Below are positions 57,777 through 61,478 of a DNA stretch of 64,000 nucleotides, one piece after another. The stretch is taken from positions 776,478-840,477 of the forward strand of contig CAWUHX010000157.1 of assembly GCA_963922205.1 (NCBI GenBank). The letters are read 5' to 3'. The notes under the pieces were generated by a model. That model saw only the letters and a program-made list of their open reading frames with translations, did not search any database and was not told the DNA's origin. Numbering within the stretch: position 1 is the stretch's first letter; every line of letters begins with the position of its first letter. The stretch comes from Romanomermis culicivorax. Its lineage: Eukaryota; Nematoda; Enoplea; Mermithida; Mermithidae. A program made the position numbers and the translations under genes.

Positions 57777-58091
57777 GGACCTTTTGTAGTAGTTCACCAC
57801 CACTATTTTTTTTCATATTTGTTTCATTCTTTTAGTTTTTTCGGCGATTTTTTTTGTCATCAGGTAGGTTTCGAAACTGCAACCTTTTGATTCAAAAACT
57901 TCAGTGCGTTACCACTGAGCCAAACACTCAGTTAAAAATCAACATTTTAATACCCATTTATTATTTTCATTATCCTAAGCCTAAGCCTAAGCTTAAGCCT
58001 AAGCCTAAGCCTAAGCCTAAGCCTAAGCCTAAGCCTAAGCCTAAGCCTAAGCCTAAAAAAAATAGTGGTGGTGAACTACTACAAAAGGTCC
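57777..58091 (-). mobile_element. TIR element carrying tRNA-like segment and telomere repeats (copy A, 315 bp)
   Basis: The ends are exact inverted repeats of about 37 bp, beginning GGACCTTTTGTAGTAGTTCA and continuing CCACCACTA plus a T run. A perfect 8-bp duplication, TGGAGTAT, flanks it (57769-57776, 58092-58099). Inside, one TIR is followed by a tRNA-like segment on the minus strand (about 57865-57930) and the other is joined directly to a GCCTAA array (57974-58056). There is no protein gene, so it must have been moved in trans; 8-bp duplications point to a hAT-type transposase. Confidence 0.92.
57974..58056 (-). repeat. Telomere-type array (GCCTAA)n in copy A
   Basis: About 14 hexamers, nearly pure, ending directly at the T-run of the right terminal repeat. 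Confidence 0.95.
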
Positions 58092-58099
58092 TGGAGTAT

Positions 58100-59330
58100 T
58101 ATCTTGCAGCTGTGTTGGTTCAGCCAACTGTATCATTTCAGCCACTGTATCAATTCAGCCAGCCCAAATAAATATATCAATTTAGAATAATCAATAACCT
58201 GGCCTTAAATGTAAGAATTGAAAATGAAAATTCCAAGCTTGTTCTCCGCAGTCATTTTTATATTTTTGCTTCTAAAGGCAGTATATTCTGCATGATGTTT
58301 TTATTATTCGAAATTTCTAATTATACACAATTAAATTAAAATGGAAAAAATCGATAAGTGATTGGAGAGTCGCTGGATCGAGACAGTGACCGAAAAGCCA
58401 CGGTGGCGGAATCACGCCAGTAGCTGAATCCGCATAAAAATAAAAAAGATTAAAACAAAAAAAATAAAATAAAATAAAAAAAGTTGAAAATAAATAAAAA
58501 TGAATATAAAAAAGCATAAAAAATAAAAAATGAAAACATAAAAATTTTTGACATAAAAATATAAACTCCACATAAAAACTTGGCGCCTGATATTACTAAA
58601 AAGCTGCACCTTAAGCTTAAGCTGGAGCTTAAATCTTTATATGTTATTACCTTTTAGTTTAGGTCCCTGGCACGATCCAGCCACTGAACTAATCGGCTGC
58701 TGTCTCGCATCAGCCACTGATTTTTGATCCACGAATTTTTCATTTTCACCTATATATGAAATCCAGCTTGCTCAGGATAATTTTTCGTCTCATTTCAGCC
58801 ACTAAATCGATTCGGCTACTTTTTCACATGGCGTATAGCCCCTACAGCGCTTTTTCGCACAAATGTGACATTTCAGCCACTGAGATTGAAAGAAAAAAAT
58901 GATTAGAAATGCACTTTTCGAACACAGTTTTCAATTTATGTTCATCCTTGTAGCTAACGTATGCAAATTAGGAGATGAAATTTCTATTTTATTGGTTAAA
59001 AATATTGTTTAAAAATTAATTTGAAAAATAGCGCTAGTGGCTAAATCAATACAGATGGCTGAATCGACACGGTAGCTGAATCACTACACGCCCCGGACAA
59101 AAAAGGGTTATTTTCGTCCAAACTTTTCATTAATTCTTCTTTATAGTGGTGATGTGCGTCGGATATCCGCATATCCGGACGGATATTTGGAAAAACTGAT
59201 ATCCGGATGGAAAAAAATATCCGGATATCTGAATATATCCGAATATTTCCACTGTTCAAGAACGAAGTAAAGGTTACTGAGAAGTTAGGTGCTATATTAT
59301 GGAGTGTTCCCAAGTGGCCCATTCCCAATT
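58100..59330. repeat. AGCCAC dispersed-motif field, part 2
   Basis: TTCAGCCACT and GTGGCTGAATC words occur singly every 50-150 bases among AT-rich DNA; 59150-59240 is a cluster of ATATCCGGATAT palindromes. No gene was seen. Confidence 0.6.
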
Positions 59331-59364
59331 GGGCAAAATCTCAAATGAGCGAATTCCCATTTGG

Positions 59365-60240
59365 GCGATTTCAAACGAGCGATAGAGAATGTAATAAAAT
59401 TTTCTTCAAAGTTTCCTTCTCTACCTTATATTTTTCTTTGTATATGTTTCTTTGTTATTTCTTTCTGTGAGTTGATTATGCTTTCGTTTATGTATGCTTT
59501 TACGTTTTCATCTTTTGTCTGTGTTTTCTTCTTTCATTTCCTTCCTTCTTGTCATATATTTTTTTCTTTTTTTACTCATGATACAATACATTACGAGTCG
59601 TCATTTTAAGCAACCGTAGTCTTCCGTATAATTCTTGTACAGTTTGACATGCTTGGGTCTTTCATCGTTGTAAGTGTGAAAATCTTCATAAAAAATATAA
59701 ACAAAAGAGTGTTGGAAAAAAAATAAAACATCAAGAGAAAGGAAACAAAAAAACGAAAAAAATAAAAAAACAAAAAAAAAATTTGAAAAAGAAAAAAACG
59801 TGAAAAGAGTGATAAGAAAGAAGATGCAAGATAGAGAAAGTAGCAAAGAAAAAATAATGTGAGAAAAAGAATCACAAAGAACAGAAAAAGACAAAGATAA
59901 AGCAGTAAATGCAAAAAACTAAGATGAAAAGTAGATAAGAATGAAGAAAAAATCACAAAGGATAAAACTAAATAGGAAATAGAGCACGCCGAATTGTATT
60001 AGAATTACATGGGAGAGAATGCTCGTTAAAAATTACAACTTCTAATGTATTGTTTCGTGAGCAAAAAAGAAACAAAATAGATGACAAGAAAAAAGAAAAT
60101 GAAACAAAGCAGAGACAAAAAATAAAAATGCAAAAACAAAAGCAACACACGGAACAAAAGAAAAAAGAAATACATACAAAGAAAAGAAGAAAAATGTGAA
60201 GAAAGTGTTATTACATTCTCTATCGCCCGTTTGGAATCGC
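59365..60240. repeat. Large imperfect palindrome, 876 bp
   Basis: The arms at 59365-59397 and 60208-60240 are inverted copies over 33 bp with about two mismatches (GCGATAGAGAATGTAATAA). A second inner pair, TAATGTATTGT, near 59585 and 60037 also matches. One half is T rich and the other A rich, as expected of a decayed hairpin element. No target duplication was identified. Confidence 0.7.
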
Positions 60241-60612
60241 TCGATTGAGAATCGCTTAGTTGCTGAATAGATTCCACATTATTACACAAAGTTTCAACAA
60301 CAAGACAAGAAAGGGTTCAGTAGTATTCTAGTTGACTCAAAGTAATTTTTACTTTAATGTGTGACTTCTTTTTACCTTTTTGCAAACAACGTTCAAAATA
60401 TTCGCATTTTTGAAGGTGCAAAAAAACACGGAAATCCGGATATGGAAATTTTTGTGGTGCATATAAAACTATAAAAGCGGTTTATAAGTTAATACAGTGG
60501 CTGAAATGACCCAGTTGGCTGAAATAGAAAAAAATTCTATTAAAAAAGAACCATCTGCTGGCTCTATTCAACGGCTGAATCTACACGGTGGCGGAAATCG
60601 AGACCCGACGTA
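60241..60612. other. Between palindrome and telomeric element
   Basis: AT-rich, with several GTGGCTGAAATGAC-type words near 60500-60600; no gene. Confidence 0.5.
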
Positions 60613-60654
60613 GAAATATTGGACCTTTTGTAGTAGTTCACCACCACTATTTTT

Positions 60655-61248
60655 TTAGGCTTAGGCTTAAGGCTTAGGCTTAGGCTTAGGCTTAGGCTTA
60701 GGTTTAGGCTTTAGGCTTAGGCTTAGGCTTAGGCTTAGGCTTAGGCTTAGGCTTAGGCTTAGGTTTTAGGCTTAGGCTTGGGCTTGGGCTTGGGCTTGGG
60801 CTTGGGCTTGGGGCTTGGGCTTGGGCTTGGGCTTGGGCTTGGGCTTGGGCTTGGGCTTGGGCTTGGGCTTGGGCTTGGGGCTTGGGCTTTGGGCTTGGCT
60901 TGGGCTTGGGCTTGGGCTTGGGCTTGGGCTTGGGCTTGGGCTTGGGCTTGGGCTTGGGCTTGGGCTTGGGCTTGGGCTTGGGCTTGGGCTTGGGCTTGGG
61001 CTTGGGCTTGGGCTTGGGCTTGGGCTTGGGCTTGGGCTTGGGCTTGGGCTTGGGCTTGGGCTTGGGCTTGGGCTTGGGCTTGGGCTTGGGCTTGGGCTTG
61101 GGCTTGGGCTTGGGCTTGGGGCTTGGGCTTGGGCTTGGGCTTGGGCTTGGGCTTGGGCTTGGGCTTGGGCTTAGGCTTGGGCTTGGGCTTGGGCTTGGGC
61201 TTAGGCTTAGGCTTAGGCTTAGGCTTAGGCTTAGGCTTAGGCTTAGGA
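60655..61248 (+). repeat. Telomere-type array with TTGGGC variant block, in copy B
   Basis: TTAGGC hexamers occupy 60655-60778 and 61201-61248. Between them lies about 420 bp of almost pure TTGGGC, with a single TTAGGC at 61171 and a few one-base slips. The frames give artefactual Leu-Gly and Ala-Trp open frames. Confidence 0.95.
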
Positions 61249-61318
61249 TAATGAAAATAATAAATGGGAGCTTAGGATAATGAAAAAAATGGGAATTAAA
61301 AGGTTGATTTTTAACTGA

Positions 61319-61384
61319 GTGTTTGGCTCAGTGGTAACGCACTGGAGTTTTTGAATCAAAAGGTTGGAGGTTCGAAACCAACCT
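61319..61384 (+). other. tRNA-like segment inside the TIR element
   Basis: TTGGCTCAGTGGTAACGC resembles an A-box region and GGAGGTTCGAAACCAACCT a T arm with B box; TTTTGAA in between could be a Gln-type anticodon loop. The anticodon stem does not pair, so it is not called as a tRNA gene. The same segment, inverted, lies in copy A near 57865-57930. Confidence 0.6.
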
Positions 61385-61478
61385 GATGACAAAAAAAAAT
61401 CGCCGAAAAACTCAAAGAACGAAAAAAAATATGAAAAAATTAGTGGTGGTGAACTACTACAAAAAGGTCCGAAATATT

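Follow-up and report, generated by a model that had tools for sequence, protein, structure and literature searches.

Telomere-type repeat arrays carried by three families of inverted-repeat elements, one of them apparently Merlin-type, in the nematode Romanomermis culicivorax

Several described systems bring mobile elements, tandem repeats or telomere-type DNA together inside chromosomes. Transposons of the Merlin superfamily are recognized by 5'-GG ends, target-site duplications of 8 or 9 bp and a transposase with a DDE_Tnp_IS1595 domain (PMC8101967); the abstract of that paper notes that some Merlin families have internal tandem repeats, and the string "telomer" occurs zero times in its main text. 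Other reports describe miniature inverted-repeat transposable elements (MITEs) with internal tandem repeats, namely miDNA4 in Xenopus tropicalis, Xmix/Xstir in X. laevis and (GTCY)n in Lepidoptera (PMC9659126, PMC12628747, PMC6947457), the insertion of telomere repeats during double-strand break repair as an origin of mammalian interstitial telomeric sequences (PMC2246262, PMC8537989), and the C. elegans TALT sequence, a template that is copied to chromosome ends in telomerase mutants (PMC9071541). In the open-licence literature, searched by titles and abstract openings and with most subscription papers outside its scope, we found no description of terminal inverted repeat (TIR) transposons that carry telomere arrays. 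Here we describe such elements in the nematode Romanomermis culicivorax, starting from a stretch of 64,000 nucleotides (GenBank assembly GCA_963922205.1, contig CAWUHX010000157.1, positions 776,478 to 840,477), called the window below, in which four elements of three families carry arrays of TTAGGC-type hexamers.

Two of the four belong to the family that we call family 1. Copy 1 spans positions 57,777 to 58,091 of the window (315 bp) on the minus strand, the strand on which its array reads TTAGGC, and copy 2 spans 60,621 to 61,470 (850 bp) on the plus strand. The first-pass annotation had reported two elements with TIRs, in opposite orientation and with the common order TIR, hexamer array, spacer, tRNA-like segment, TIR, and every part of this description holds, as does the presence of a separate perfect 8-bp duplication around each element: TGGAGTAT for copy 1 (57,769 to 57,776 and 58,092 to 58,099) and GAAATATT for copy 2 (60,613 to 60,620 and 61,471 to 61,478). 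The right TIR of copy 2 has one additional A. The array of copy 1 is 83 bp long, as had been reported (57,974 to 58,056, minus strand), and that of copy 2 measures 587 bp (60,658 to 61,244, plus strand) instead of about 594 bp; its description as a telomere-type hexamer array needs amending, in that TTGGGC predominates (65 units) and TTAGGC is found at the two edges. The window was searched for a paralogue of the copy-1 site without the insertion, and only short partial matches came up, for example 26 bases of the left flank at 58,787, too few to use.

Family 1 is dispersed through the genome. The 20-bp TIR end has 112 exact matches in the 359-Mb assembly (51 forward and 61 reverse), and its backward control has none; 93 of these sites lie in the window and the fetched loci, three in loci L070 and L123, and the remaining 16 outside the examined DNA. 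The end search yields 56 paired elements, to which L070 and L123, recovered through other searches, add two for a total of 58. Target-site duplications match at 8/8 positions in 42 of 56 paired copies, at 7/8 in 11 and at fewer in three, while not one of 560 control comparisons reaches 7/8 or 8/8. Two loci, L010 and L028, have common flanks and represent a single duplicated insertion that is entered twice in these counts. TTAGGC arrays are present in 56 of the 58 paired copies, the exceptions being L013 and L070, and in all six extra loci in which one end is degraded or absent. Relative to the tRNA-like segment the array has a fixed direction: in 54 of 55 copies TTAGGC reads on the sense strand of the segment, and the 55th could not be assigned by script. 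The array-bearing unit is thus mobile, and transposition is a means by which the arrays have spread. The earlier claim of a family stands genome-wide, with far more than two copies and with duplications and telomere-type repeats at copies beyond the window; these same data support the proposal that a TIR family moves a telomere-type array as a unit and thereby adds interstitial telomere-type repeats.

The two array-free copies indicate where these elements come from. L013 (869 bp, duplication GAGTTTTC) and L070 (973 bp, duplication TCAAATTT) have family-1 TIRs and zero TTAGGC units, and they are the same two copies that retain transposase sequence, which the array-bearing copies lack. L013 matches the profile PF12762 (DDE_Tnp_IS1595) with an E value of 5.8e-21, its transposase has a D-D spacing of 60 and a D-E spacing of 36, and L070 is 92% identical to it over the query; among the matches listed (154 found, with 150 of 336 candidates scored), only L013 and L070 exceed 90% identity to the L013 protein. 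On our own reading of the sequences the front of the gene is missing from L013 and the frame is broken by stops in L070, and no intact copy of the family-1 subfamily was identified among the loci examined. Family-1 TIRs consist of GGACCTTTTGTAGTAGTTCACCACCACTA and a T run at both ends, are at least 24 bp long and begin with 5'-GG, as Merlin ends do; the duplications (8/8 in 42 of 56 copies, 7/8 in 11) agree with the 8 or 9 bp of Merlin; and a DDE_Tnp_IS1595 transposase within the element is supplied by the array-free L013. Because copies with family-1 ends carry Merlin-type transposase sequence together with Merlin ends and duplications, family 1 appears to be Merlin and not hAT, and its array-bearing members are best classed as non-autonomous Merlin (IS1595-type DDE) elements, that is, as MITEs. 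The first-pass annotation had looked to hAT, with which 8-bp duplications are also compatible, but this identity finds no support: the ends begin with 5'-GG, the elements with these ends hold Merlin-type transposase sequence, and although no separate genome-wide search for hAT elements was made, we regard membership in that superfamily as exceedingly improbable. Six further loci (L076, L078, L079, L080, L082 and L084) contain additional Merlin elements, about 1.5-2.0 kb long, whose ends read GGCACTT... and whose 8-bp duplications are perfect; these have no telomere arrays.

The tRNA-like segments of the window copies (57,860 to 57,932, minus strand, in copy 1; 61,316 to 61,391, plus strand, in copy 2) are part of the element arm, which is present in L013 and absent from L070. 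They do contain words resembling the A and B boxes; their identity as tRNA did not hold up, since ARAGORN predicts no tRNA gene there and the folding is unremarkable (z -0.61).

Comparison with the array-free copies places the array within the element. In class A (25 copies) the order is TIR, T run, array, final transposase codons, shared right arm. In class C (five copies, one of which, L054, is rearranged at the TTTTATTTTAAT edge) the left flank of the parent continues as far as TTTTATTTTAAT and is followed by the array and then the arm, and the end of the open reading frame is not kept. Class B (26 copies), to which both window copies belong, copy 2 with its TTGGGC-expanded array, has neither the parental left flank nor the end of the reading frame. 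Four copies left unplaced by the script were assigned by eye, L048 to class A and L010, L023 and L028 to class B. Given the flanks kept in these three junction types, the array occupies the site of the missing transposase gene: it sits at the missing interior of a transposase-bearing parent. The classes also differ in their arms. At one variant site all 25 class A copies scored have g, while c is found in 23 of 25 class B and four of four class C copies; arm variants split A and L013 from B and C, and a tree of 55 of 57 rows (L032 and L070 had no recognizable arm, and L123 was found afterwards) groups A with L013 at support values of 95/88, with the bootstrap not settled. Arms diverge from the majority sequence of their class by about 2% per copy, and the spread of family 1 therefore looks recent.

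The arrays themselves carry a record of descent. A TTAGGT unit is present in 20 of 26 class B, two of 25 class A and none of four class C copies, and in five of the 26 class B copies it stands at an equal distance from the right edge and is followed by exactly four perfect units, so that array variants are inherited within family 1. Arrays have also been rearranged after acquisition, as seen in L031, L061 and W2, which by our reading contain internal duplications involving the array, and in L054, which has two reversed units besides the main direction. Apart from those two units, the orientation of the G-rich strand is uniform in all scored copies, a pattern that fits extension of one end and single ancestry alike. 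Nested within a family-1 telomere array, at L021 (G000:C103:561410-562370), is a small insert with inverted repeats (AGGCCCTGTCATACTTC...).

Family 2 is represented in the window by a 445-bp element at 54,080 to 54,524 (plus strand) with ends GGCTAATTTTAACAATACGGTAAGT and GGCAGGAATTTACAATACGGTAAGT, a perfect 8-bp duplication AATAAAAA (54,072 to 54,079 and 54,525 to 54,532) and a TTAGGC array at 54,221 to 54,337 (plus strand). Its left-end word has 106 exact copies in the genome, and arrays are present in all 25 copies examined (24 fetched and the window copy), with a single perfect unit among degenerate ones in L137 and L149. Three junction types, a (12 copies), b (nine, with L127 placed there by eye) and c (four), have near-identical flanks, L140 being absent from the arm comparison. 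Duplications of at least 7/8 occur in 10 of 12 copies tested, L135 and L149 failing, and together with the 5'-GG ends the 8-bp duplication agrees with Merlin; a 12-base word of the left arm recurs in two of 28 Merlin loci, a resemblance that may be due to chance. Family 3 is a fold-back element of 787 bp at 10,018 to 10,804 (minus strand), with arms built of 14-bp repeats, a 9-bp duplication ATACTTTTC matching at 9/9 positions (10,009 to 10,017 and 10,805 to 10,813) and a TTAGGC array at 10,413 to 10,538 (minus strand). The inner arm has 295 genome matches at up to two mismatches, often as inverted pairs; all 12 interiors (11 fetched and that in the window) contain arrays, in one direction relative to the arms throughout, and a second copy, whose ends were fetched, has a duplication of seven of eight bases by eye that the exact script search did not return; Merlin and Mutator-like elements are the candidate affiliations of this family. 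Arrays are thus present in three families with different ends.

The distribution of these hexamers bears on whether the arrays are ordinary microsatellites that slippage expanded from a TTAGG word next to the T run, with their telomere likeness a coincidence. L070 does have TTTTTTTTAGGAAG at the point where class B arrays begin. Yet the arrays of classes A and C begin elsewhere, one hexamer recurs in three families, and in a scan of the window for runs of four or more perfect hexamers, each of the 13 found consists of TTAGGC or TTGGGC and falls inside one of the four elements; (TTAGGC)6 has 22,615 overlapping matches in the genome against five for its backward control. We consider a microsatellite origin improbable. 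One other period-6 array in the window, of ATAAGG at 13,637 to 13,806, is degenerate and non-telomeric. At locus L041, two TTAGGC arrays (534-690 and 1302-1640) lie beside what we read as apparent exons of a TPR protein gene; one stands between 14-bp inverted repeats TGCACTTTATAGC without a convincing duplication, and in the same scan the other has no such repeat. The exact SL1 spliced-leader word has no match in the genome.

Contig ends were inspected over 250 bp each. None of 20 ends from 12 contigs has a TTAGGC array; contig ends may be assembly breaks, so this count says little about the host telomere. At seven of the 20 (L102, L104, L105, L107, L109, L114 and L117) there is an adaptor-like word, AAGCAGTGGTATCAACGCAGAGTACT, which we take to be a SMART-type primer and which suggests that the assembly was made from amplified DNA. 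Amplification or assembly could in principle have joined telomere DNA to transposon ends, as this word might lead one to suspect, but clean duplications mark dozens of separate insertion sites, and different copies have exactly the same junctions, which makes such an artefact a negligible concern.

We propose, as a probable account, that internal-deletion derivatives of transposons gained telomere repeats in break repair and were then spread by transposition. An internal deletion would have taken out most of the transposase gene of a Merlin element, and the deletion junction would have gained a TTAGGC run, most likely as a double-strand break was sealed that had arisen from excision or from gap repair that stopped short. 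Internal deletions with filler are common when gap repair following excision is interrupted. We infer that either telomerase added the repeats or they were taken up from telomeric DNA, and on our reading the class B junction after TTAGG and the class C junction after AAT are compatible with TTAGGC extension of a broken 3' end. Transposase supplied in trans would then have spread the array-bearing copies by cut-and-paste, with an 8-bp duplication at each new site, and slippage and unequal recombination may later have lengthened, shortened and rearranged the arrays.

A number of observations weigh against this account. No junction examined has a diagnostic telomerase signature, and TTAGGC is only a putative telomere repeat of this species. 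Arrays of at least two units are found in none of 28 fetched Merlin relatives, within the fetched DNA, and gain of an array is therefore not general for Merlin in this genome. For family 2, no transposase-bearing relative was found and a genome search for an array-free junction of type b gave no matches; family 3 has no link to a transposase, for which no search was made; and both families were discovered through their arrays, an ascertainment that favors finding arrays in them. We sampled 12 long arrays, namely the separate arrays among the first 100 listed places, a stretch that covers C1 to part of C4 and includes only two listed family-1 sites. Four of the 12 coincide with a family-2 or family-3 site or are no more than 200 bp away from one, and for the other eight we see no membership in family 1, 2 or 3. 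Finally, two family-3 copies, L155 and L160, have deletions at the array edge that removed TTTTGCAT, so a single gain in each family, with deletions afterwards, may account for the differing junctions.

This last point leads to an alternative to which we give slightly less than an even chance: each family acquired its array once, and deletions reaching outward from the array then produced classes A, B and C in family 1 and a, b and c in family 2, with no repeated gain within a family. Beyond the family-3 deletions, the left junction of class B is, on our reading, the expected product of a deletion between two TTTAGG words of class C, the family-2 types have near-identical flanks, and the duplications in L031, L061 and W2 indicate that arrays participate in rearrangement. 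Against this, no element that combines a class C left flank, an array and a class A right flank occurs among seven left-flank places (at up to three mismatches); class A has two arm variants, whether ancestral or derived, in common with the array-free L013 against B and C; and as the three families differ in their ends, fewer than three acquisitions would suffice only if arrays had passed from one family to another.

Gain in break repair followed by transposition could also be part of something broader, an idea that we offer tentatively and think unlikely as it stands: cut-and-paste break repair in this lineage may be coupled to telomere-repeat addition, so that short non-autonomous elements would arise again and again with TTAGGC arrays where the break had healed, and would form both a main source of interstitial tracts and a scattered reserve of telomere template. 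That the array is functional cargo, kept through telomere-repeat proteins or localization, or for mending of host chromosome ends as with TALT in C. elegans, seems to us quite improbable. Every non-autonomous paired copy of family 1 that was examined does retain its array, as does each copy examined in families 2 and 3, but a founder effect predicts the same retention, and very short tracts persist (class minima of 12, 18 and 24 bp in family 1; one perfect unit in the family-2 copies L137 and L149).

Since arrays are found in at least three TIR families, DNA transposons are one genuine origin of interstitial telomere-type repeats in this genome, and part of the telomere-like DNA dispersed within chromosomes can be explained directly by them. 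These elements give a copy-by-copy source for such tracts, with duplications checked in many copies of two of the three families, and they make several questions countable: what share of tracts lies in elements, how the repeats were first acquired, and whether these copies serve as template when telomerase fails.

Among described systems, family 1 resembles the Merlin superfamily (related to IS1016/IS1595) in its 5'-GG ends, TIRs of about 35 bp, 8-bp duplications and the DDE_Tnp_IS1595 domain of an array-free relative (PMC8101967), and differs in that its copies are non-autonomous and carry telomere-type arrays. With TALT it has in common telomere-type tracts that adjoin unique sequence; the end-template role is known for TALT, and the accessible text on TALT states no link to TIRs (PMC9071541). 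The likeness to mammalian interstitial telomeric sequences, as reported, lies in the gain of telomere repeats at breaks, which for our elements is conjectural; the mammalian insertions were compared locus by locus, whereas here acquisition apparently took place inside transposons and was followed by amplification. Similar in form are the tandem-repeat MITEs, which likewise hold, spread and lengthen a tandem repeat (PMC9659126, PMC12628747, PMC6947457). What sets the R. culicivorax elements apart from them is that the repeat is a telomere-type hexamer, that three families in one genome carry it, and that in family 1 it lies at the junctions where the transposase gene was deleted.

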